55,088 bases of DNA, from contig JAIOSL010000007.1 of assembly GCA_021107635.1 (NCBI GenBank), forward strand, positions 100,188 through 155,275, written 5' to 3'. Positions 33,506 through 55,087 of the stretch are shown here, piece after piece. The DNA is from an archaeon (GTDB lineage Archaea > B1Sed10-29 > WALL01 > JAGHAM01). The notes beneath the pieces are model-generated. The model ran no database searches and had not been told where the DNA came from. It worked only from the letters and a program-made list of their open reading frames with translations. A program made the position numbers and the translations under genes. Numbering within the stretch: the first letter of the stretch is position 1; the number at the start of each line of letters is the position of its first letter.

Positions 33506-35935
33506 ATGAAGTCAATAAACATAAAAAAAGTAGCAACCATCGCTGCCGGTGCAGTGATGTTAGCAGGCGCTGCATTCGCAGCAGTCAATGTGCCTACTGA
33601 AGCTGCTGACCCTGGCTTTTATTGGGATGACAACGGAAACGTTATCTCTCAAGTAGTCTTGGGTTCGCAAGCACAGGCTGTTGACGGTGTGCAAGCAGCC
33701 AAATTCGCTGCTTTCCTCGGAAGCAAAGCTTACGTCACAGGTGACGCAGGCGGAGAAGGAACTGTCCTAGGTGAAGACGTTGATCTGACTTGTGCAGTCA
33801 CTGTCGAAACTGAAGGCGGTCAAATCGAATTGCCCGAAGAAAGTGTAAAAACTGACATAGCTTATACCGGAGGACTAACCTCCGCTAACAGGCTTACTCT
33901 CCAAACTTCAGAGGGTATGCAAAAAGGCTATGTAAAGTACAAGAGCACAGAGTATGACTACGAAGAAAAAGTAGTCGCTGGTGACAATACTATTGGATTA
34001 GGATACGTTGAAGGAAACGACTATCATGGCGTTCACTTCTCTAATCTACGTGGTACTGGAGCAAGCGGAAAGTACTACTACAGATTCGACTTCCTAGACA
34101 ATTTCCCAATCGAGTCATTAACTGACACAGTCACAATACCTTTCCTTGGAGAGGACTATGTGATTAACAAAGTCAAAACAAACGAAATTGAACTCGTTAA
34201 GGGAACCAAAATCGACCTAGGTGTCGGACAACAACAAGACGTTACTGTTGGTAACACTACCTACACTGTAACTCTGAAAGACGTTGGTTTCGATGAAGGA
34301 ACCTCTACAGGATACGCATTCGTTGAAGTAGTAAAAGGCAGTGACTCCAGTACAATCAAACTAGACAAAGGAGACAGTGCTGCAGTGCTCGGCCTAACTG
34401 TTTACGTCCAAGCAGCAGCCAAATCTTACGCAACAGGTACACAAGGTACCGCAACACTAAGAGTTGGTGGAGAAGCACTCAAACTAAAGAGCGGATACGC
34501 CTATCCAAATGACGCAGACTGGGAAGTCAAAATAACTACATCTACCACAGGACAATGTTACACCACCGGTTCATGCAGTACATACATTGACTACATCAGC
34601 CTTTACTACGACAAAAATGTCAAAGCTAAAGATGGCGTCATCTCAGTAGCTGGACCAGAAGATTACTTCTGGCTAGAATACATGGGAACTCAAGTTGACC
34701 AAGGATGGAACACTTGGGAATATGAGGACCTTTGGGTTGGAGCAGGTATAGAATCTAGTGACGCATATCCAGATTATATCAGATATACCGACTACAGCAA
34801 CAACAGAGACTTTGCTGTGAACCTGAACGACGGAACTGATCAGCTAGCCTTCCTAGCTTCAACAGCAGCAGGTTTCATCGGAAACTGGACCAACGCTACA
34901 GTTAACACGCCTCTAGCTCTAACTGAAGGAGACTTGTTCTTCGTCAACAACGCTCCAGTATACGTTAGTGCAATTAACATGGCTAGTACCCTAGCTGATG
35001 CACAAATGACTCTGGAAGAGAACTATGGTATCGTAGACAGCACAGCAACGTCTAGAGATGTCAAAGCTAACGGTGGAACAAACTATGCAGCAACTGGTTG
35101 GTATCTATCCTCACCAACACTGGTTGGGTCAACCGTCGAGCTAAACTGGACTTACAACGGTTCAATCCACTCAACTCCATACGTGAGAGTTCTTAGTGGA
35201 GCAAGCAATACAATCCGAACTAAGTACGGTTATATCGACTGGACACACATGGACAATGCATCAACAGAAATCCTAGGACCAACCAACGTTCTCGTAACCA
35301 CACCAGCTAGTAGTACCCTAACCTTTGGCTACGACAATGCATCAACCAACGAAGGTTATTGGCTATCTGATGGCTCCACTAACGTATCTAAGCAAAACAC
35401 AGCAAACACTGACTACGAGTCATACCTCTACCACAAAGCCGCTGACTATTCAGCAGAAGCTGATGAAGACGAAACTACCACACGAGTCAAAATTACTCTA
35501 CCAGAACAACAACCACTAAAACACAGAGTAACCTTGACAAGAACTGGAATCGCAGCAACAGAAGCAGGACAATCCACATACACCTATCCAGATTTCAGCG
35601 GAGCTGTCGTAGACATGACTTGTGAAGCAGCAGACGTAGTTTATGACCTACCTCCAACTGGAGTTAGCTTCGGAACCGTCGGAATGGATATCGTTATCCT
35701 AGACACAGATCAACCAAGAGGAAACGCACTCATTCTAGGTGGACACGCAGTCAACGCAAAAGCAGTTGGCGCAACTGAAGAAGCTTTAACCGCAGCTGGA
35801 TCAACACACGTCTCAAAAGAAGGAACAAACGTCTTTGTTGCCGGTTGGGCAGGTACAGACACCAAGAGCGCAATTGACGCTTTGATTGACGCAATCAAAG
35901 TAGCAATGGTCGCAGAACCAGTAGAAGAAGCCTAA
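33506..35935 (+). CDS. S-layer protein, methanogen-type
   Basis: This 809-aa protein has a Sec signal (MKSINIKKVATIAAGAVMLA, cleaved near AFA). The mature N-terminus has VVLGSQAQAVDGVQAAKFAA with FLGSKAYV, and the C-terminus has DIVILDTDQPRGNALILGGH and VFVAGWAGTDTKSAIDALID. These bracketing modules are the paired S-layer domains of Methanococcus-type S-layer proteins. The middle is Tyr/Thr/Asn-rich beta material. No C-terminal membrane anchor is seen. Many N-x-S/T sites are present. Consistent codons, a strong ribosome site and a strong terminator suggest very high expression. Confidence 0.85.
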   Translation: MKSINIKKVATIAAGAVMLAGAAFAAVNVPTEAADPGFYWDDNGNVISQVVLGSQAQAVDGVQAAKFAAFLGSKAYVTGDAGGEGTVLGEDVDLTCAVTVETEGGQIELPEESVKTDIAYTGGLTSANRLTLQTSEGMQKGYVKYKSTEYDYEEKVVAGDNTIGLGYVEGNDYHGVHFSNLRGTGASGKYYYRFDFLDNFPIESLTDTVTIPFLGEDYVINKVKTNEIELVKGTKIDLGVGQQQDVTVGNTTYTVTLKDVGFDEGTSTGYAFVEVVKGSDSSTIKLDKGDSAAVLGLTVYVQAAAKSYATGTQGTATLRVGGEALKLKSGYAYPNDADWEVKITTSTTGQCYTTGSCSTYIDYISLYYDKNVKAKDGVISVAGPEDYFWLEYMGTQVDQGWNTWEYEDLWVGAGIESSDAYPDYIRYTDYSNNRDFAVNLNDGTDQLAFLASTAAGFIGNWTNATVNTPLALTEGDLFFVNNAPVYVSAINMASTLADAQMTLEENYGIVDSTATSRDVKANGGTNYAATGWYLSSPTLVGSTVELNWTYNGSIHSTPYVRVLSGASNTIRTKYGYIDWTHMDNASTEILGPTNVLVTTPASSTLTFGYDNASTNEGYWLSDGSTNVSKQNTANTDYESYLYHKAADYSAEADEDETTTRVKITLPEQQPLKHRVTLTRTGIAATEAGQSTYTYPDFSGAVVDMTCEAADVVYDLPPTGVSFGTVGMDIVILDTDQPRGNALILGGHAVNAKAVGATEEALTAAGSTHVSKEGTNVFVAGWAGTDTKSAIDALIDAIKVAMVAEPVEEA

Positions 35936-44165: not shown

Positions 44166-46193
44166 ATGTTCGAAACTGATCTAGATCTTCTAATCGCTTC
44201 TTTAGGCATTGGAGCAGGCCTGCTTGCCTTGCTATTTGCAGGAGTACTAGCATACCAAATCAAAAACACCAAACTAAAACAAGAAAAAACCGCTGAAATC
44301 TCACGAGCAATCCACAAAGGATCAAAAGCATTCCTAAAACGAGAATACTCCACACTCTCCATTTTTGTACTAATAGTTACTCTAGTGCTCGGAATTTTCC
44401 TTGATGAATACACAGCAGGCGCTTTTCTTCTAGGAGCAATACTCTCTGCTTCAGCAGGATACATTGGAATGACCATCGCAACAAACGCCAACGCAAAAAC
44501 TACAGAAGCAGCATCAAAAAGCATCAACAGCGCGCTTCGAATGGCATTTTCAGCAGGAACAGTAATGGGAATGACAGTAGTAGGACTTTCACTCCTAGGA
44601 ATAAGCATTGCATTCCTAGTCATACTCAGTGCCAAAGGAAACATTCAAGAAGCAACAAACATCATAGTCGGTTTCGGCTTTGGAGCATCCTCTATCGCAC
44701 TCTTCGCTAGAGTCGGAGGAGGCATCTACACAAAAGCCGCAGACCTAGGCGCAGATATGGTCGGTAAAATTGAAGCAGGTATTCCCGAAGATGATCCTCG
44801 TAATCCAGCAGTAATAGCTGACCTAGTTGGTGATAATGTTGGAGACGTAGCAGGAATGGGAGCAGACCTATTCGAATCATACGGAGGCGCAATAATCGCA
44901 GCAATGAGTCTAGGCCTAGCAACATACCAAGCAATGGGTCTGACAATCGCATTATTTCCAATTGCACTAGCAAGCATAGGCATAATCGCATCCATACTAG
45001 GAACATTTTTAGTACGGACAGGAAACGATACCGACATGGGCAAACTCTTAGCAGCTCTACGAAAAGGAACCATTGGATCAGCACTACTTTTTCTCATATT
45101 TTCTCTTCCACTAGTATACTTCATCTTTCCAACAAACTGGCCAAACATCTTCATAGCAATACTCACAGGCCTAGTAGCAGGCGTTATAATCGGCCTTTCC
45201 ACAGAACACTATACTTCTGATAAATACACAAGAACCCGTCAAATAGCAGAATCCTCACAAAAAGGACCAGCCAGCACAATAATAACAGGATACGCAATCG
45301 GACTCCGCAGCACTGCTATCCCTATCCTAATCATTGCAGCAGCAATACTAATCGCAAACCAAACAGCAGGACTTTACGGTGTATCCATCGCAGCAGTTGG
45401 AATGCTAGCAACTCTTGGCATTACTCTAGCCACTGACGCATACGGGCCAGTAGCAGATAATGCTGGAGGAATCGCAGAAATGGCAAAGCTACCAAAAAAA
45501 GTCAGAGAACGCACAGACGCACTCGACTCACTAGGTAACACTACCGCTGCAACCGGCAAAGGCTTTGCCATAGGCAGTGCAGCCTTGACTTCACTAGCCT
45601 TAATAGCAGCATACACTACAGCAGCAAAACTTGAACCAGCACAAATGGCAATCACCAACCCAGTCATACTAGTCGGCCTGTTCATTGGAGGAATGCTTCC
45701 ATTCCTGTTTTCATCCATTACCATTATCGGCGTCAGCAATGCATCCAATAAAATCATAGACGAAGTACGCAAACAATTCAAAAACAACGACATAATGACA
45801 GGCAAAAAACAACCAGACTACATCAAGTGCATAGACATAAGCACACAAGGAGCACTCAAAGAAATGATCATACCCGGAATGCTTGCAGTACTAGTACCTA
45901 TCGTTTTCGGTTTTATATTCGGAGCAGCTGCTCTTGCAGGACTGTTAATCGGAGCTTTAGTTTCCGGATTCCTACTAGCAGTTAAAATGGCCAATGCTGG
46001 AGGAGCATGGGACAATGCAAAAAAATACATTGAAAAAGGAGCTCATGGAGGCAAAGGCTCAGATGCTCATAAAGCAGCAGTAGTAGGAGATTTGCTTGGA
46101 GACCCATTCAAAGATACTGCAGGACCAGCACTAAACATCCTAATCAAACTAATGAGCGTTATCTCCCTAATCTTCGCACCATTCTTTCCTTGA
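44166..46193 (+). CDS. hppA: Membrane-bound ion-pumping pyrophosphatase, K+-dependent signature
   Basis: This 675-aa protein with about 16 helices pumps H+ or Na+ using pyrophosphate. The substrate site is in [20 protein letters not shown] and [17 protein letters not shown], with further acids in [16 protein letters not shown] and [18 protein letters not shown]. The region [15 protein letters not shown] (near residue 460) has Ala where K+-independent enzymes have Lys, which marks the K+-dependent class. That class includes both Na+ and H+ pumps, so the ion is undecided. It has its own promoter. The 3' end overlaps the next minus-strand gene by 27 bases. Confidence 0.94.
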
Positions 46194-46691
46194 ATTGACA
46201 ATAGCATACTTGATGCCAGGATGTTTTTCTTCAATACTTTCTAGGCACTCTAACAAAACACTATCAAAATCATTCAATTCTGGCCAATTCCCAATAATGC
46301 TATTCATGCCAGCATAACACTCAATTTCCTTTCTAGAACAACGCTTTAGAGGAGCTATTCCATTTTGCTGAACAGTTTTACCCATACTTTCTTTTAACAC
46401 ATTCAAGACGCTATCCTCTAAACAAGTCCCAACAATCAAAACATCAACTTTCTCGCTCGGATTTTTAACACACTCATTTCTAGCATTCAAAGCAAAAGGT
46501 TGGATAACCTCAAAAGCAACTTTTCCTCCTAAACTAACAGTATCAAATCCTACCATGCTTTTACTAGGCAAATGTCCTCTGAGACTATTCAACACTTTCC
46601 TCTCAAAATAACTCTTAAAACATCTACTACAAAACTTCTTGTTTTCACAAGAAAGTTCAATAATGCTCTTCTTTCCACAAGAACAAGCCAT
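46167..46691 (-). CDS. TtuA/Ncs6-like protein lacking the PP-loop ATPase
   Basis: This 174-aa protein keeps the two ends of the TtuA/Ncs6 tRNA 2-thiolation family. The N-terminal zinc finger is [20 protein letters not shown] then [11 protein letters not shown]. The C-terminal part has [20 protein letters not shown] and [20 protein letters not shown]. The SGGKDS PP-loop that binds ATP is absent. The usual G-H-N-x-D-D-E segment appears as VGTCLEDSV, with its key residues changed. Family length is about 300. It looks like an internally deleted paralogue without adenylation activity; an RNA- or partner-binding role is possible. Confidence 0.6.
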
Positions 46692-46745: not shown

Positions 46746-49319
46746 ATGAAAAAAGGTTTAACTCCTGTCGTTTCAACCGTGTTACTAATAGGACTTGCTT
46801 TCATGCTAGGATTAGGCCTCTACTTTTGGGCAGCATCTCCTACTCCAGGACCAGAACCAACAAAACCAGCAATCATCACAGTACGACCTGTCTCAGTCTC
46901 AGACGGAAAATTTCTTATAACAAATACAGGCATGCAAGAAATCACCTTGTCTCAACTTCAAACAAGCCACCCAAGCCTAACCTGCACTTTCGATGAGAAC
47001 GTAACAATCACACCCGGAAAAAGCGCTGCCTGCAACATGATGCCTATTGCAAGCAAAGGAATAACTTTTTTCGGAAATGACAATAACGGCATAGCCATAA
47101 CTCCATTTTTGCTTAAACTAACACACACTGAAGTAAAAGACGTATCCTACTTTCCAGTCTCCGCAAGCACTCCTAATTGGTGGAATACCTCCTGGTCAAA
47201 AAGAAAGCCACTTACCATCCAAAACAGTCTATCCGACTCAGAAAACTGGTGGAACAACAGCTGGCAAAGAAGACTGCCTATAACACTGGATAACACGGGA
47301 GCTCAGCTCTCAAACTTTACAATCAAAGTTCAATTCGCTTACGACAATGACATGAAAACGAACTTCAATGATCTGCGTTTCATAGATAGTGACAACAGCA
47401 CTGAACTAGACCATTGGCTAGAAGACTATAACAGCACCAATGCTACTTTTTGGGTTGAAGTGCCAACACTCTCAGCTAATGTTAGCACTATCTGGGCATA
47501 CTATGGTAATTCTGGCGCAGACTCAGAAAGTAATGGAACAGAAACGTTCCTGTTCTTTGATGATTTCTCTTCTGATTCTCTGACAGTAACTGCAGGAGAT
47601 CCAATAACCGCGGCTAAAAATTTCACAGAGATTCCCAACATAGGATTCGAATTATACTCAAAAATGGAAGCGCTTGAAGGACACACAGCAAGCACTTTCT
47701 GGTCATGGGTTGTCCCGTTCTACTTAATCGATTTAAGTGAAGATGATTACGCTCGCGGATGTTTTTACAGTAGGAGTGGCTCTTACTACAAGCAACTTCA
47801 TGTATACAATAATAGTGTCAGCGAAGGCGGTGAAAGCGGATACAGGTACAGCGATGGATACAATTACACTATTCTACTAAGACATATTCCAGGAGAACGA
47901 TTTAGATATCAGCTATTCAATTATAGTTCTGATAGCTCTCTAAATGATTGTACGGTTGCAACAAGCATGACGTTCTATCCAGATCAATACCAACTACGGG
48001 CACGCTGTTCCGGTGCTTGTGATGATGGTTACATCACCTACAACGCTACAGGCGATTTTTATGAAGTTTCAGGAGATTACGACTCTGATGAAGTGAAAGA
48101 ACGATTTTATTGGGTTTTCATAACAAAATTTGATCCTGATTCCGTTTCAGTCTCTCCAGGCTCAGAAGAACAATACACAAATGCAAATTTAACTGATTAT
48201 CCTCTTTTGGTCAACGTTTCTTATGACACTGATATGAACAGCAACTTCAGTGATTTACGTTTCATAGATACTGACAACAGCACTGAACTAGACTATTGGA
48301 TAGAAAATTATTCTGATTCTTCCTACGCAGAAACATGGGTAAAAATAAACAGTTCAACCGGAAACAAAACAATCTGGCTTTACTATACCAACAGTGAAGC
48401 AAACAACGAAAGCAATGGAACAGCAGTTTTTTCCTATTATGACCATTGGATTTCAGATAATACTGGAGACTGGCTTTATGGCGTGCCTGCAGCCAACAGC
48501 CCTTATCGCTGGCAAAACACTCTTTCATTTAATGCTTCAAGACAATTACGCGCAAAGTCCACGCTTGAAAACTGGTGGAGTGGTGCATGGGATTACACTG
48601 ATTTTGGATGGACCTCAGACAAGTCAACAAAACTCAGCTTAACAAATCATGTCACCCTACAATGGCATCAAAGAACCGATCAAGGAGCTAATAGTACTAA
48701 TATTCCAGTTAGACTTCTAGTTAGAGCAAACTCTGAGAACGTCTACACAGACTTTATTAACGTGACCAAGCCAAGTTCAAGCGATGAACTCTACTTAACT
48801 CTAGAATACTCTCAAGACAATGTAAGCTATACTTGGGAATACGTTAATAATGGCACAATCCTAGCAAGCGATTACATAGACAACGCATCCCAAATACCCT
48901 CTTTGAGCAATGTAACCTACCTAGTAATCGGCCAATTATCATGTTGTCCAGATGACTATTTTAATCAAGTAAGCTCTGATTACCTACAATGGGGCAATCC
49001 CTCACTTAATGGTGGAATGGAATGGAAGACAGACTACTGGTTTATTCGAACATACAGTACTGATCCGCAGATATCTACGGGTAACGAAGTAACCTATTCA
49101 GCAGGAGACGGAAGTACAGAATTAACCTATGCAGTCAACGATCCAGACGGACTCCAATGGGTCAACCTTACAGAAGGAGGCTCAAGCGTCTCATCAACAG
49201 CAATAACTGGATGTAATTCATTTTATACCAACACTTACTCTAGCTATAACTCAGATGAAACCTACCTAGTATGGTACAAAGACTGTGAAGGAATCATAGA
49301 ATCTCTCACAATAGAATGA
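46746..49319 (+). CDS. Pilin-like surface protein with two DUF2341-type domains
   Basis: This 857-aa protein starts with an archaeal prepilin-type peptide (MKKGLTPVVSTVLLIGLAFM), with expected cleavage after KKG leaving a hydrophobic helix, then a small beta domain to about residue 140. Two copies of a DUF2341-like domain lie near 167-272 and 479-568. Both contain D-x-x-F-x-D-L-R-F-I-D and a Trp/Tyr-rich end (IWAYYGNSGAD and IWLYYTNSEAN). The last 60 residues match the end of the next protein. Asn-x-Ser/Thr sites are dense, so heavy glycosylation is likely. A leaderless promoter CTTTAAAAATAC lies upstream. Confidence 0.78.
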   Translation: MKKGLTPVVSTVLLIGLAFMLGLGLYFWAASPTPGPEPTKPAIITVRPVSVSDGKFLITNTGMQEITLSQLQTSHPSLTCTFDENVTITPGKSAACNMMPIASKGITFFGNDNNGIAITPFLLKLTHTEVKDVSYFPVSASTPNWWNTSWSKRKPLTIQNSLSDSENWWNNSWQRRLPITLDNTGAQLSNFTIKVQFAYDNDMKTNFNDLRFIDSDNSTELDHWLEDYNSTNATFWVEVPTLSANVSTIWAYYGNSGADSESNGTETFLFFDDFSSDSLTVTAGDPITAAKNFTEIPNIGFELYSKMEALEGHTASTFWSWVVPFYLIDLSEDDYARGCFYSRSGSYYKQLHVYNNSVSEGGESGYRYSDGYNYTILLRHIPGERFRYQLFNYSSDSSLNDCTVATSMTFYPDQYQLRARCSGACDDGYITYNATGDFYEVSGDYDSDEVKERFYWVFITKFDPDSVSVSPGSEEQYTNANLTDYPLLVNVSYDTDMNSNFSDLRFIDTDNSTELDYWIENYSDSSYAETWVKINSSTGNKTIWLYYTNSEANNESNGTAVFSYYDHWISDNTGDWLYGVPAANSPYRWQNTLSFNASRQLRAKSTLENWWSGAWDYTDFGWTSDKSTKLSLTNHVTLQWHQRTDQGANSTNIPVRLLVRANSENVYTDFINVTKPSSSDELYLTLEYSQDNVSYTWEYVNNGTILASDYIDNASQIPSLSNVTYLVIGQLSCCPDDYFNQVSSDYLQWGNPSLNGGMEWKTDYWFIRTYSTDPQISTGNEVTYSAGDGSTELTYAVNDPDGLQWVNLTEGGSSVSSTAITGCNSFYTNTYSSYNSDETYLVWYKDCEGIIESLTIE

Positions 49320-49355: not shown

Positions 49356-52300
49356 ATGGACAAAGGAATTTCTGCAATAGTATCTACTGTACTCTTAATG
49401 GCTCTTGCAGTATCAGTAACACTTGGACTATTCTACTGGGCTAACTCTTTGGCGGCTCCAGGCCCTGAATCTTCCAAACCAGCCACTATTGCATTCAAGG
49501 CTATATCGCCAGAGGACGGGCGTTTTCTTGTCACGAATACTGGCCTCCAGTCAATAACGTTGTCCGAGCTGAATACCAGCGAGACAGGCGTGACTTGCGA
49601 CTTTAACGGTACTGTCACCATAACAGCTGGCGACAGCAAGGTCTGCTATATGGCTCCAAAATCAGGAGAATTTGTTTCTATCTTTGGAACTGATGACAAT
49701 GGCCAAGGAATAACTCCTTTCACAATCACGCTAGGCCACGGTGAAGTCCCAGAAGCATCATTTTTCATAACGTTTTCAGTCGAAGGCTCTGATTCCTGGA
49801 CCACGGAAACCGTGGACAGCACAGGCAATGTTGGGGAGTACACTTCAATCGCAACGAACAGCAGTGGCGACTTACACATAAGCTATTATGACAGCACCGC
49901 CGGCGACTTGAAACATGCTGAGTACAGTGGTTCAAGCTGGTCTACAGAGGCAGTGGACAGCACAGGCGTTGTCGGGTTGTACACTTCAATCACAACGAAC
50001 AGCAGCGATGACTTACACATAAGCTATTATGACAGTACCAACGGCGACTTGAAACATGCAGAATACAACCCAAGCTGGGACATGGAGACTCTAGACAGCG
50101 TGGGAATGGTCGGTTCTTACACATCAATTGCCAGGGATAGTAATGGCTATGTCCACATAAGCTACGATGACGCCAGCAACTACGACTTGAAGCATGCATG
50201 GTATGATGGCTCTTGGCACACAGAAACAGTAGACAGTGAAGGAGAAGTCGGGATATACACATCGATAACAATCGGTAGTAATGATAATATACACATAAGC
50301 TACGAAGACTACGACAATGACGACCTAAAATATGCTGAATACAACGGTACAGCATGGACTACGGAAATTGTGGACAGCACTGGAACAGTCGGATGTTACT
50401 CATCAATCACAACAAACAGTAGTGGCAATCCCCACATAAGCTATTACGATACTTCTTCTGGAGACCTCAAACATGCATGGAACGATGGCTCATGGCACAC
50501 GGAAGCCATAGACACAGAAAACGTCGGGAGATTCACATCAATCACAACAGACAATAATGATCACCTCCACATAAGCTACTACAGCGGAGCCAATCACGAC
50601 CTAAAACATGCATGGTACGACACCTCCTGGCACACGGAAACCATAGACAGCACAGGAGACGTCGGGCTATTCACATCCATCACAACACTAAACGATGAAA
50701 TACACATAAGCTATGTAGATGACACCAATAGATACCTGAAACACGCATGGTATGATGGGTCTTGGCACACGGAAACAGTAGACAGCACAGGAGACATTAG
50801 ATGGTACACTTCAATCACAACACTAAACGATGAAATACACATAAGCTACTCAGATGACACTAATGACGACCTCAAGCACGCGGAATACAACGGAACAGAC
50901 TGGACAATAGAAACAGTTGACAGCACAGGTGATGTCGGGATGTACTCGTCAATCACTACGGACAGCGAGGGCAACATCCAAATAAGCTATCATGACGGGA
51001 CAAACTACGACCTGAGATACGCAGAATACACAACATGGTCAACAGAAACCATTGACAGCACTGGCGATGTTGGGTTACATACCTCAATAGCAACGGACAG
51101 TGATAATCGCCTCCACATAAGCTACCAAGATTCCACCAACGCGAACCTAAAACATGCTGAATACACTAGTATAAACGGAGATTGGACTAACGAAGTCGTC
51201 GATGCTGCCGGTGACGTAGGAAAATACTCATCCGTGTTCATTGACGGTGACACTATCCACATAAGCTATTTCGATGACACTAACAATGACCTAAAATACT
51301 CTAAATATGATGGTTCCTGGTACAATGAAACAGTTGATAGCACGGGCACAGTTGGAGAGGGGTCATCTATAACAGTTGACAACGACAGTCACGTTCACAT
51401 AAGCTATTACGACAACACCAATGCCGACCTCAAGCACGCTGAGTACAGCCCAAGCTGGTTAACAGAAACCATTGACAGCAATGGCAATATTGGTCGGTAC
51501 GCCTCAATTGCGCTTGACGGCAGCAACAATCCCCACATAAGCTACTACAACAATACTGACTCTACCCTCAAGCATGCTTGGTATAACGGTTCCTGGCACA
51601 CAGAAACTGTCGACAGCGCGGGCCTTGTCGGAGACTCATCATCTATTGCGGTGGATGATAATGATCACCTCCACGTAAGCTATCGCGATCTCAGTAACAA
51701 CGACCTTAAGTATGCCAAGTACAATGGTTCTTGGCACACAGAAACTGTCGATAGTGCGGACGCTGTTGGACTTCACACATCTATAGCAATAGATGGTGAC
51801 AACTACACGCACATAAGCTATTATGACAGCACTAACGGTGACCTTAAGCATGCTTGGTATAATGGTTCTTGGCACACAGAAACTGTCGACAGCGCGGGCG
51901 TTGTCGGAGAGTACACATCTATTGCGGTGGATGATAGTGACCACCTCCACATAAGCTATTACAACAGAACTAACACTGCCCTCAAACATGCTTGGTATAA
52001 TGGTTCTTGGCACACGGAGACTGTGGATAGTGTGGGCATCATCGGAAATTATGGTTCATCTATTGCGGTGGACGATAGCGGTCACCTCCACATAAGCTAC
52101 CTCAACGACATTGATGATGACCTTAAGCATGCTTGGTATAATGGTTCTTGGCACACGGAGACTGTGGATAGTGCGGACAACGTTGGAGCGTACTCGTCTA
52201 TTGTTGTGGATGGCAGCAACAACCTTCACATAAGTTACTATGACAGCACTAACGGTGACCTTAAGCATGCTTGGTATAATGGTTCTTGGCACACGGAGAC

Positions 52301-53897
52301 TGTGGGTGGTGTGGGCAAGGTTGGATTGTACTCGTCTATTGCTGTGGATGATAGCAATAACCTTCACATAAGTTACTACGACGACACTAACGAAGACCTC
52401 AAGTATGCTAAATCTCCAGGGTGGTACACAGAGACCATTGATAGCACTGGTGATGTTGGAAAATTCACGTCTATAGCAATGGATACCAACAACTACACGC
52501 ACATAAGCTACTTCGACGAAACTAACGACGACTTGAAGCATGCTTGGTATAATGGTTCTTGGCACACGGAGACTGTGGACAGTGCGGGCGTTGTCGGGTG
52601 GTATCCTTCTATTGCTTTGAATGGTAGTGATGTTCACATAAGCTATGTTAACTATGGTGGAGGTCAGCTTAAGTATGCTTTGTATAATGGTTCTTGGTAT
52701 ACTGAGACCATTGGTAGTATAGGTCCATTCGGGGGAGCGGATTGTTCTATTGCTTTGAATGGTAGTGATATTCATATACTCTACTATTTTTCAGAACCAG
52801 GTGTTACCGAGCTCAAGCACGCTGTGTATAACGGTTCTTGGTTTACGGGGGTTGCTGTTAGCGAGAATATTTCTGGGGGGCAACTATCTCTTGTGGTGAA
52901 TAATGGTACTCTTCATACAGGATTCTATGACGGCGTTAACGGAGATCTCAAGCACGCTTGGTATAACAATTCTTGGTTTACGGAGACTGTGGATGATACA
53001 AATGATGTTGGGAGATACTCATCAATAGCGGTTGACAGCGGCGGCAACTTCCACATAATCTACTATGATAACACCAATGACGACCTGAAGCACGCTGAAT
53101 ACACTCCTGGAAGTCAAGGATGGGTCTTGACAACAGTAGACAGCACTGGCAATGTGGGGTCTTACTCGTCCATAGCAATTGATGGCAGTGACCATCCCCA
53201 CATAAGCTACCGTGATGTCAGTAACACCGCCCTGAAGTATGTATGGTACAATGGCACTGCCTGGACAGCTGAGACTGTGGACAACACAGGAAACACCGGA
53301 GCATTTTCTTCGATTGCAATAGATAGCAATGATGATATCCACATAATCTACCAGAGCGATACAGATGACCTAAAGTACGCTGAATATAATGGTTCTGCTT
53401 GGTCTACAGAACTAGTGACCACTGCACCTTGGGGTCTCTGGCACAACTCACTCACAATCGACAACAATGATAACCCCCAAATAATCTACTATGCCACCAT
53501 CAATGGCTCGTACGTAGTGCTCAGGCACGCTGAACACGACGGTTCATGGAACATGGAAAACGTCGACCTCAGCACGAGTGACATCGGAAAATACAACTCA
53601 ATAACAGTAGACAACAATCACCTACACGTAAGCTACTATGACAATACCAACGATGACTTGAAACACGCAGAGTACACCCCTCAAACAGAGACTACTACCC
53701 TAACCTACACAGTTAATAATGCGAACGGCCTGGAGTGGATGGCTTTGAAAGAGGATAGTGTGACTGTCGCTAACAGCAGCGTGTCAGGCTGCGATACTTT
53801 CTATACCAGTCGGTACTCTGACTACAATGCATCCAAAACCTATGCTGTCTGGTATAAAGACTGTGAAAATAACATTGATAGCAAAATCTATTCATAA
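49356..53897 (+). CDS. Giant pilin-like surface protein with 28 propeller-type repeats
   Basis: This 1513-aa protein shares the prepilin-like start (MDKGISAIVSTVLLMALAVS), the N-terminal beta domain and the C-terminal cap with the preceding protein. Between lie 28 units of about 46 residues built on the phrases TETVDSTGDVG, YTSI, HISYYDSTNGDLKHAWYNGS and W. Each unit fits one four-strand beta-propeller blade. The cap has two cysteines (VSGCDTFY and WYKDCENN), which could form a disulfide. It is probably a cell-surface adhesin or sheath component. It is leaderless behind CTTTAAAAACC. Confidence 0.8.
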   Translation: MDKGISAIVSTVLLMALAVSVTLGLFYWANSLAAPGPESSKPATIAFKAISPEDGRFLVTNTGLQSITLSELNTSETGVTCDFNGTVTITAGDSKVCYMAPKSGEFVSIFGTDDNGQGITPFTITLGHGEVPEASFFITFSVEGSDSWTTETVDSTGNVGEYTSIATNSSGDLHISYYDSTAGDLKHAEYSGSSWSTEAVDSTGVVGLYTSITTNSSDDLHISYYDSTNGDLKHAEYNPSWDMETLDSVGMVGSYTSIARDSNGYVHISYDDASNYDLKHAWYDGSWHTETVDSEGEVGIYTSITIGSNDNIHISYEDYDNDDLKYAEYNGTAWTTEIVDSTGTVGCYSSITTNSSGNPHISYYDTSSGDLKHAWNDGSWHTEAIDTENVGRFTSITTDNNDHLHISYYSGANHDLKHAWYDTSWHTETIDSTGDVGLFTSITTLNDEIHISYVDDTNRYLKHAWYDGSWHTETVDSTGDIRWYTSITTLNDEIHISYSDDTNDDLKHAEYNGTDWTIETVDSTGDVGMYSSITTDSEGNIQISYHDGTNYDLRYAEYTTWSTETIDSTGDVGLHTSIATDSDNRLHISYQDSTNANLKHAEYTSINGDWTNEVVDAAGDVGKYSSVFIDGDTIHISYFDDTNNDLKYSKYDGSWYNETVDSTGTVGEGSSITVDNDSHVHISYYDNTNADLKHAEYSPSWLTETIDSNGNIGRYASIALDGSNNPHISYYNNTDSTLKHAWYNGSWHTETVDSAGLVGDSSSIAVDDNDHLHVSYRDLSNNDLKYAKYNGSWHTETVDSADAVGLHTSIAIDGDNYTHISYYDSTNGDLKHAWYNGSWHTETVDSAGVVGEYTSIAVDDSDHLHISYYNRTNTALKHAWYNGSWHTETVDSVGIIGNYGSSIAVDDSGHLHISYLNDIDDDLKHAWYNGSWHTETVDSADNVGAYSSIVVDGSNNLHISYYDSTNGDLKHAWYNGSWHTETVGGVGKVGLYSSIAVDDSNNLHISYYDDTNEDLKYAKSPGWYTETIDSTGDVGKFTSIAMDTNNYTHISYFDETNDDLKHAWYNGSWHTETVDSAGVVGWYPSIALNGSDVHISYVNYGGGQLKYALYNGSWYTETIGSIGPFGGADCSIALNGSDIHILYYFSEPGVTELKHAVYNGSWFTGVAVSENISGGQLSLVVNNGTLHTGFYDGVNGDLKHAWYNNSWFTETVDDTNDVGRYSSIAVDSGGNFHIIYYDNTNDDLKHAEYTPGSQGWVLTTVDSTGNVGSYSSIAIDGSDHPHISYRDVSNTALKYVWYNGTAWTAETVDNTGNTGAFSSIAIDSNDDIHIIYQSDTDDLKYAEYNGSAWSTELVTTAPWGLWHNSLTIDNNDNPQIIYYATINGSYVVLRHAEHDGSWNMENVDLSTSDIGKYNSITVDNNHLHVSYYDNTNDDLKHAEYTPQTETTTLTYTVNNANGLEWMALKEDSVTVANSSVSGCDTFYTSRYSDYNASKTYAVWYKDCENNIDSKIYS
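49791..53680 (+). repeat. 28-unit tandem repeat of about 139 bases inside the giant gene
   Basis: The DNA repeats track the protein units. Units around 51830-52600 are nearly identical at DNA level (for example the shared CTTAAGCATGCTTGGTATAA and GGTTCTTGGCACAC), while the 5' units have drifted and use different codons (GACTTGAAACATGC). This gradient suggests recent duplication or gene conversion in the 3' centre. Confidence 0.9.
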
Positions 53898-53968: not shown

Positions 53969-55087
53969 TTGAAAAAATTGGTTAAAAAAGCCGCTAAAAG
54001 AGCACGCGAAAAAACAGATAACAAGCCATCAAAATCAAAAATGACAGACAAAGAACTAGAAGAAATTCTAGTCGAAACTAGAGCAAAAATCCGAGTAATC
54101 GGAACAGGAGGCTCAGGCAATAACACGATGGTCAGACTAAACGAAATCGGCGTGCAAGGTGCAGAAATACTTGCAATGAATACAGATGCACAACACCTAT
54201 TAGTCACACCAGCAGACAAGAAACTATTACTAGGAAGAGACGTAACCAAAGGACTAGGAGCAGGATCAGACCCTGCGCTAGGAGAAGCAGCAACCAAAGA
54301 AAGCGCAAAAGACATTGCCAAAATGATAGAAGGTAGTGACCTAATTTTTGTTACTTGTGGTCTAGGAGGAGGAACTGGAACCGGTTCGTCACCTGTTCTA
54401 GCACAACAAGCCAGAGACCTAGGAGCACTCACAGTAGCGATAGTAACCCTTCCATTCAGCGTTGAAGGACACCGAAGAATGGAAAATGCTCTGGATGGAC
54501 TCAAAAAACTCAGAAAAGAAGCGGACACCGTAATAGTCGTACCAAACGACAAACTACTTGAGATTGTCCCGGATTTACCTATTAACGCAGCATTCAAAGT
54601 AGCAGATGAAATACTAGTCAATGCAGTCAAAGGCATCACAGAACTAATCACAAAACCCGGACTAGTCAACCTAGACTTTGCCGATGTTAGAGCAGTACTC
54701 TCAAACGGAGGCGCAGCAATGATCGGCCTAGGTGAATCAGAACTTGAAGGCGATTCAGAAGGAAGAGCTTTAGAAGCAGTAGAAGACGCATTGAATTCCC
54801 CTCTACTAGACATTGATGTTTCAGAAGCCACTCGCGCGTTAGTGAACGTTTCAGGTGGCTCAGACATGACACTCAGAGAAGCAGAAATGATTGTCGAAGC
54901 AGTAACAAGCAAAATACACTCCAACGCAAACGTAATCTGGGGAGCAGTAATCGATGAAGAAATGAAACGCAACAAACTTCAAGCAATGATAGTCATCGCA
55001 GGCGGAAGATTCCCATACCTTGATGGAAGCCAAAGAAACGAAGAAGATGGACTTGAAGTGGATTTAGGTGTCGACTACGTTGAGTGA
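53969..55087 (+). CDS. ftsZ: Cell division protein FtsZ
   Basis: This 372-aa tubulin-like GTPase forms the division ring. The glycine-rich GTP loop is CGLGGGTGTGSSP. VIGTGGSGNNTMVRLNEIGV opens the fold, NTDAQHL and LPFSVEGHRRMENA follow, and the T7 synergy loop is in NLDFADVRAVLSNGGAAMIG. A lysine-rich N-terminal extension of about 40 residues precedes the fold. The tail after the fold is short and acidic. Start is TTG, preceded by GGGGTGA. The gene is complete, ending one base before the window edge. Confidence 0.95.
   Translation: MKKLVKKAAKRAREKTDNKPSKSKMTDKELEEILVETRAKIRVIGTGGSGNNTMVRLNEIGVQGAEILAMNTDAQHLLVTPADKKLLLGRDVTKGLGAGSDPALGEAATKESAKDIAKMIEGSDLIFVTCGLGGGTGTGSSPVLAQQARDLGALTVAIVTLPFSVEGHRRMENALDGLKKLRKEADTVIVVPNDKLLEIVPDLPINAAFKVADEILVNAVKGITELITKPGLVNLDFADVRAVLSNGGAAMIGLGESELEGDSEGRALEAVEDALNSPLLDIDVSEATRALVNVSGGSDMTLREAEMIVEAVTSKIHSNANVIWGAVIDEEMKRNKLQAMIVIAGGRFPYLDGSQRNEEDGLEVDLGVDYVE

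Follow-up and report, generated by a model that had tools for sequence, protein, structure and literature searches.

Results

A locus encoding a 28-unit repeat protein

All positions refer to the window, the whole 55,088-nucleotide stretch of archaeal DNA that was analysed. Two related genes lie near its right end, between a membrane pyrophosphatase-like gene and ftsZ. The genes and features are listed below; G001 is a genome of the same family and G004:C2 is a frame with a homologous N-terminal module.

44166–46193, + strand: membrane pyrophosphatase-like gene, left locus marker (named from sequence inspection; 71% identity in G001)
46746–49319, + strand: upstream paralogue, 857 aa, with two DUF2341 stretches enclosed by the same N-module and cap (sequence comparison)
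49356–53897, + strand: coding sequence, 1513-aa protein, putative modular pilin with 28 predicted propeller blades (intact ORF; pN/pS 0.37 between units)
49356–49793, + strand: N-terminal pilin-like module, aa 1–146 (TIGR02537 17.4 bits, cut-off 20; 41% identity to G004:C2 over aa 1–134; AF2 helix and strands)
49794–50756, + strand: units 1–7, aa 147–467, proposed propeller 1 (unit table; AF2 and Foldseek, seven-bladed PLL ring against the N-half model, TM 0.81, rmsd 2.8)
50757–51725, + strand: units 8–14, aa 468–790, proposed propeller 2 (unit table; AF2 N-half model)
51726–52688, + strand: units 15–21, aa 791–1111, proposed propeller 3 (unit table; AF2 C-half model, seven-bladed PLL matches, TM 0.74)
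52689–53678, + strand: units 22–28, aa 1112–1441, proposed propeller 4 (unit table and identity matrix; AF2 C-half model)
53679–53894, + strand: C-terminal cap, aa 1442–1513, small beta domain with two conserved cysteines (46% identity to the neighbour's cap, 60% to that of G001; six-cap alignment)
53969–55087, + strand: ftsZ, right locus marker (83% identity in G001; annotated ftsZ homologues)

The 1513-residue reading frame starts with ATG and is intact. Its array, flanked by the pilin-like N-module and the C-terminal cap, spans residues 147–1441. A sequence-only reading of this DNA had counted 28 units of about 46 residues with HISYYD-like and LKHAWY-like phrases, and an HMM of the A-B-C core returned the same number, exactly 28 copies at spacings of 44–50 aa. 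There are 28 evenly spaced LK[HY]A-type anchors between residues 185 and 1435, while a simple pattern finds 27 HISY-type anchors, the remaining one being a degenerate copy, TGFYDG, in unit 23. The array runs in the order D0-A1B1C1-...-D27-A28B28C28, from a first strand SWTTETVDS to the end LKHAEYT. Because the longest exact DNA repeat within it is only 56 nt, a short-read assembly error is an unlikely source of the count. Median identity between units is 53%, far beyond chance, with units 22, 23 and 27 the most diverged in the identity matrix. In every one of the 378 unit pairs pN is smaller than pS (mean pN 0.30, mean pS 0.79), which indicates that the units are selected as protein.

The array is an exchangeable cassette between a pilin-like module and a cap

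The N-module begins with a class III signal-like start, MDKG/IS..., in which a short charged leader ending in K/R-G is followed by a long hydrophobic helix (MDKG-ISAIVSTVLLMALAVSVTLGLFYW; residues 7–32 in the AF2 model). A beta-rich head (residues 45–126) and a linker to about residue 146 complete the module. Its TIGR02537 score lies just under the cut-off, and the 1513-aa protein itself has no match to Pfam Pilin_N. The G004:C2 frame matches Pilin_N (PF07790) at 41.1 bits (cut-off 25.2), and a homologous N-module elsewhere in the same order (L031) does so at 30.8 bits, also above the cut-off. Genome-wide, we found two matches to PF01478 (prepilin peptidase), five to PF00437 (T4P ATPase) and seven to PF00482 (TadC-like), together with small conventional pilins. 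The prepilin-like anchor suggested earlier is thus corroborated by homology to relatives that pass the Pilin_N cut-off and by the T4P machinery in the genome.

The N-terminal domain and the C-terminal cap recur in the neighbouring gene, at 49% and 46% identity respectively. In relatives and in this neighbour the same N-module and cap enclose other middles, namely DUF2341/LamG, FG-GAP with dockerin, or a divergent seven-unit propeller, and the pilin module is retained in a whole set of proteins of the order. The cassette between pilin module and cap, which the sequence-only reading took to be replaceable, has been exchanged in evolution, and related proteins carry other binding domains on the same carrier. 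G001 has the gene order membrane pyrophosphatase, pilin-like gene, ftsZ. When the same locus was sought upstream of ftsZ in 12 further genomes, where some contigs end too soon, it was visibly retained only in same-family G001.

With pilin-like residues 1–146 fused to a 1295-aa array of predicted propeller fold, the protein has the make-up of a modular pilin. We consider this giant archaeal protein a probable modular pilin that acts as a multivalent adhesin, either displayed by type IV pilus machinery or retained in the membrane. A less likely alternative, which nevertheless deserves weight, is that a protein of this same architecture never becomes part of a filament: its pilin-like helix would be a mere membrane anchor and the propellers a lectin or receptor on the cell surface or associated with the S-layer. 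The gene indeed lies outside T4P loci, adjoining the pyrophosphatase-like gene and ftsZ; homologous seven-unit arrays elsewhere have no pilin part and rely instead on lipoprotein signals, Sec signals or C-terminal TM helices; and the bulk of 28 blades would permit only a tip or very sparse position in a filament. Conservation of the pilin module across this set of proteins in the order argues against a mere anchor, as does the presence of T4P machinery and small conventional pilins in the genome.

The repeat is predicted to form seven-bladed propellers

In AlphaFold2 models of the two halves, the array is entirely beta: it contains no helix, and each unit contributes four strands. The best single-ring PDB matches in Foldseek were to the seven-bladed PLL/PHL lectins, with TMt 0.81 and an rmsd of 2.8 over the whole 336-aa ring for the N-half model, and TMt 0.72–0.74 for the C-half model. 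By these matches, the predicted fold has the four-stranded antiparallel blades and the closed ring of seven that define a seven-bladed propeller, at a pTM of only ~0.5 and with low confidence in the relative placement of the rings. A profile search at E ≤ 1 returned neither PLL nor PHL chains, and the likeness to this family is structural only. Pfam and NCBIfam searches of the 1513-aa protein gave no propeller family for the repeat. A motif scan found no Asp-box, VCBS/FG-GAP, WD40, YVTN or PQQ propellers, and there was no significant Pfam match to the protein.

The only natural PDB propeller found with a profile of seven-unit arrays was the fucose lectin AAL (E 2.5e-5). Strands C and D are alike in the two proteins (LSEFVYDGSKW in AAL, LKHAWYDGSW in the array). 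AAL is a six-bladed propeller, however, and fits the AF2 models worse (TMt 0.58–0.60 in Foldseek). Its fucose site uses Arg and Glu, on strands B and C. In the aligned strands of the array the Arg is replaced by His in 26 of the 28 units and by Gln in the others, and the Glu by His or Tyr (20 and 8 units). The protein thus lacks the site residues of the AAL fucose-lectin family, and the sugar specificity of AAL cannot be carried over.

Arrays occur almost always in multiples of seven but grow by single blades

The genome also contains a stand-alone array of seven units of this repeat. At about 40 other bacterial and archaeal loci the arrays have 7, 14 or 21 units, save three with 6 (L057), 12 (L053) and 13 (L072), so that 3 of ~41 countable arrays are not multiples of seven. 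The units of L053 are near-identical, and L072 has a frame break at the array start. Apparent off-size arrays were checked by eye. L104 ends at a contig end and overlaps L103, and the pair was counted as 21 units; frameshifts interrupt arrays of seven in L067 and L099; contig ends truncate L062 and L069, and L066 is masked. Several mixed alignments of fragments were discarded, as MAFFT had shifted the repeats. No relative was found among 2.9 million viral contigs, which were searched for a viral source.

Similarity at a lag of seven units is absent from the 28-unit array (z –0.7) and from ten other long arrays (z between –1.6 and 1.5). We therefore rejected duplication of whole propellers in favour of growth blade by blade. 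Arrays would lengthen by blade duplication, and the preference for multiples of seven, itself an observed pattern, could result from selection for closed rings. The steps of 7, 14, 21 and 28 provide a clear test case in nature for the growth of tandem propellers, because blade-wise duplication should pass through incomplete rings, which are almost never seen.

The 28 units very probably form four consecutive seven-bladed propellers, as the AF2 and Foldseek results, the stand-alone seven-unit array in the genome and the census sizes of 7, 14, 21 and 28 all support. Four such rings had been suggested from the sequence, with structure prediction as the check; the models are all-beta and ring-matching, and no non-propeller solenoid appeared. 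A grouping other than four separate rings, for example eight- plus six-bladed rings, rings strand-swapped between molecules, or one open superhelix, is improbable. It could draw on the low AF2 pTM, on the lack of linkers at the 7/8, 14/15 and 21/22 borders (spacings of 45–48 aa) and on the 7+8 arrangement predicted for tandem blades of another family (PMC9218822). Against it, seven is the usual size of a stand-alone array, each half matches a complete seven-bladed ring, and total lengths step by seven across unrelated hosts. We hold it very unlikely that the propellers are enzymatic, cleaving glycosides as some propeller glycosidases do. The Bacteroides propeller-fold glycoside hydrolases 5muk and 5mul are among the structural matches, but they superpose poorly (rmsd about 13), no Pfam hydrolase matches, and the near-equivalent units share the same conserved residues with no single specialised catalytic blade visible. 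An alpha/beta, TIM-barrel-like repeat is extremely unlikely: the seven-unit-array profile matched the de novo sTIM11-group TIM barrels at E 2.5e-11, but these artificial, repetitive sequences match by way of a chance phrase, DLKEAWKKGADILIVDAT. The hit is a repeat-composition artefact, contradicted by the helix-free four-stranded models.

Discussion

In the proposed working of the putative giant pilin, the class III signal and hydrophobic helix would enter the membrane, where prepilin peptidase probably cuts. The helix may then either join a type IV filament, most likely at the tip because the cargo is bulky, or remain in the membrane. The small beta-rich head would carry the four predicted propellers in series, closed by the C-terminal cap. 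By analogy with PLL and AAL lectins, the seven near-equivalent inter-blade clefts of each ring may be ligand sites. Up to 28 equivalent weak sites per chain could give strong binding through avidity, and glycans of another cell, an S-layer or a matrix are the most plausible targets.

The PLL/PHL lectins of Photorhabdus, the closest solved fold, also have seven four-stranded blades with multivalent inter-blade sites, but they are single rings rather than four rings on a pilin module, at about 15% identity and with no sequence-profile match. AAL differs in its six blades and in the binding Arg and Glu, which the array protein does not keep. Highly repetitive beta-propellers are likewise long runs of similar blades amplified from single blades, with up to 47 blades known, and their blade numbers peak at a family's ring size and its double, 7 and 14 for WD40 (PMC9218822). 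The present repeat differs in having no Pfam model, in occurring almost exclusively as 7n up to 28, and, in one archaeal order, in being borne by a pilin module.

Many bacteria encode modular pilins that bear lectin modules, and for one modular pilin a role as adhesin has been proven (PMC8179133). In Streptococcus sanguinis, PilB and PilC consist, as here, of a small pilin module onto which a binding module (vWA, lectin) is grafted; the cassettes vary widely, PilB has been shown to act directly in adhesion, and a tip position is argued from bulk (PMC8179133). The putative adhesin described here differs in its archaeal pilin type, its conserved C-terminal cap and its 28 tandem blades in 1513 aa, whereas the most extreme modular pilin cited in that survey has 860 aa and 12 motif copies (PMC8179133). 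PilY1/PilC pilus-tip adhesins also use a beta-propeller in type IV pilus adhesion, but that propeller is unlike this repeat, and PilY1, itself no pilin, docks on minor pilins (PMC8179133), whereas in the present protein the pilin module and the predicted propellers form a single chain. DUF2341 is a proposed adhesin domain of archaeal pilus tips, and large DUF2341 proteins occur in archaeal T4P loci (PMC4858521). The neighbour at 46746–49319 resembles these pilin-system surface proteins and combines DUF2341 with the same N-module and cap; the array protein, in contrast, lacks DUF2341, has a predicted propeller array as its cassette and is encoded outside the T4P loci.

Many archaea with small genomes are believed to rely on other cells. 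The host is a small-genome archaeon, and a multivalent pilus lectin is therefore a candidate for partner recognition. More broadly, and only tentatively, we propose that a propeller family spread over bacteria and archaea, not previously described, is held to whole seven-blade rings though growing by single blades, and that in one archaeal order it sits on pilin carriers, so that the pilus would display equivalent binding sites in adjustable number (7 or 28), drawn from exchangeable cassettes recognising partner or host cells. A partial literature search found no publication describing this architecture; modular pilins and multi-propeller arrays are each known, and their combination and size here are new. 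The modular-pilin idea, documented in bacteria, is extended to an archaeal order that reuses one carrier, pilin module plus cap, with many binding cassettes. The 28 blades on one chain are the largest such cargo found in this analysis.

An intact gene with 28 repeat units

The repeat array lies within a single reading frame:
49356-53897, + strand: array protein ORF, intact, 1513 residues
Residues 147-1441 of the product: repeat array, 28 repeats of about 46 residues each

The sequence-only reading had counted 28 units of about 46 residues with HISYYD-like and LKHAWY-like phrases, and this count holds: LK[HY]A-type and HISY-type anchors each occur 28 times (one degenerate copy counted in for the latter), and an HMM built on the repeat core recovers 28 copies at even spacing. 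The units share about 53% identity, and three positions never vary among the 28: the Trp opening strand D, one Ser of strand A and one Leu of strand C. In every one of the 378 unit pairs pN is lower than pS, so selection acts on the array at the protein level; exact DNA repeats within it reach 56 nt at most, which makes an assembly artefact an unlikely source of its length. Its first element is a single strand, SWTTETVDS, and its last is LKHAEYT, an arrangement in which a ring's final blade is completed by the opening strand.

Predicted fold

No model in Pfam or NCBIfam covers the repeat. A sequence profile of seven-unit arrays reaches the fucose lectin AAL, a propeller, with an E-value of 2.5e-5; the same profile also matches designed TIM barrels, an artefact. 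We obtained two AlphaFold2 models, of residues 1–801 (pLDDT 79, pTM 0.49) and 785–1513 (pLDDT 80, pTM 0.50), with input sequences from the window and the fetched loci only. Both have four strands per unit, the sole helix being the N-terminal one at 7–32. In Foldseek searches of the PDB, the best single-ring match of the N-terminal half is PLL4 (8q82), a seven-bladed Photorhabdus lectin, with a TM-score of 0.81 (target length) and 2.8 Å across the whole ring, and those of the C-terminal half are the seven-bladed PLL5 and PLL4 (0.74). Six-bladed AAL fits clearly less well (0.58–0.60). Judged from the superpositions on seven-bladed lectins, the 28 units are predicted to form four seven-bladed rings, as the sequence-only reading had proposed; the predominance of multiples of seven among relatives agrees.

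Array sizes in relatives

Elsewhere in the source genome, on a separate contig, a lipoprotein-like protein has seven units of this repeat, up to 73% identical to those of the array and with the same start and end strands. A scan of GTDB genome contigs gives 31 loci with the repeat in bacteria and archaea, those from one genus (G206, G307, G324) not being independent of one another, and 13 of 394 archaeal genomes searched are positive, the source genome among them. Strict-spacing automatic counting of 24 arrays yields 7 (n=14), 14 (n=4), 28 (n=1), 6 (n=1), 12 (n=1) and 5 units (n=3), with multiples of seven in 19 of the 24. Among the five-unit arrays, L099 continues in another frame, L032 has seven units by eye, and L077 is too divergent for counting. 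Counting by eye, with less even arrays included, gives 27 arrays of 7 (two frameshifted), 8 of 14, 2 of 21 (L105; L103+L104) and the window's 28, the exceptions being three arrays of 6, 12 and 13 units. Read by eye, the divergent propellers in relatives' pilin-like proteins (L032, L034) have seven blades as well.

L103 (2000-3390) and L104 lie on contigs C37 and C20 of G324, whose ends carry the same sequence; joined over the break they give the 21 units, with a frameshift in the third. The bacterial arrays L050, L053, L054 and L072 open with a short special blade in common (HIVYGGDYLYHAYFDG-like), which may serve to close a ring or to start the array.

Similarity at lag seven is not raised in any long array examined, and lag-one similarity is raised in several. 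Together with the multiples of seven, this suggests that arrays lengthen blade by blade and are selected to form closed rings, rather than arising by copying of finished propellers.

A pilin-like carrier with an exchangeable middle

The N-terminal module (about 146 residues) opens MDKG-ISAIVSTVLLMALAVSVTLGLFYW and is modeled as a single long helix with a beta-rich head. Its score against the archaellin/pilin N-terminal model falls slightly under the cut-off, and homologues of the module in the same taxonomic order pass the Pilin_N cut-off, in keeping with the prepilin-like anchor first proposed. The view that this module and the cap (72 residues) enclose a replaceable middle is borne out by the neighboring gene and relatives. 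The two enclose DUF2341 in the next gene upstream (46746-49319), DUF2341 with LamG and, in a second gene, FG-GAP with dockerin in G001 (same family), and seven-unit propellers in G008 and G002, the G002 gene start being lost at a contig end. G004 has the carrier module in front of a PQQ-type propeller, and G003 has it in front of DUF2341 with LamG, the cap being weak or unchecked in these two. The FG-GAP/dockerin-type protein of G001 (L029, 2676-5378, - strand) could offer a cohesin/dockerin-like contact from its archaeal pilin carrier. Pilin_N frames in 19 genomes of the phylum form a small class, mostly of about 90–200 residues, and a large class of up to about 1130. Prepilin peptidases, pilus-type ATPases and TadC-like proteins are encoded in the source genome, whose contig C29 also carries two small pilins.

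Proposed display and relation to known systems

To the observed repeat, its count, the shared modules and the machinery we add a proposal for display and binding, by analogy with bacterial modular pilins, DUF2341 proteins and PLL lectins. The leader would be cleaved, the protein would be displayed at a type IV filament tip or at the membrane, and clefts between blades might bind multivalently. Cassettes of bacterial modular pilins include lectin domains, with adhesion demonstrated in one case (PMC8179133); DUF2341 proteins are suggested to be archaeal pilus-tip adhesins (PMC4858521); and a PLL ring may have two kinds of site, with as many as seven of each (PMC5584973, PMC6943638). As a PHL ring is 45 Å wide and 30 Å high (PMC5584973), four rings in series, if extended, would by arithmetic span roughly 12–18 nm. 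The array units do not retain the site residues of AAL, and AAL is therefore no guide to their ligand.

Three kinds of protein met here are already known, namely modular pilins, seven-bladed lectins and long blade arrays; up to 47 blades are reported for propeller arrays, and WD40 numbers peak at 7 and 14 (PMC9218822). The array protein extends these kinds by a new combination. As far as our tools reach, three things are new: the repeat family itself, for which Pfam has no model; how strongly its unit numbers keep to multiples of seven; and the predicted four-ring cargo that it forms on an archaeal pilin.

Gene neighborhood

G001 retains the gene order mPPase (membrane pyrophosphatase-like gene), pilin-like gene, ftsZ, with one pilin-like gene there versus two in the source genome. 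Neighbors in the window are:
46746-49319, + strand: upstream paralogue, large pilin-like protein with DUF2341, directly 5' of the array gene
46167-46691, - strand: 174-aa gene, no Pfam match; same place in G001, 41% identity
33506-35935, + strand: 809-aa protein, Pfam S_layer_C at 27.5 bits (cut-off 23.9)

The DUF2341 middle of the paralogue resembles that of the single G001 copy. In N-module and cap, the paralogue is 46% and 51% identical to that copy; the array gene comes slightly closer, at 47% and 60%, which hints weakly at cassette exchange. The 33506-35935 product probably belongs to this cell's own S-layer, and is a possible surface neighbor of the array protein.
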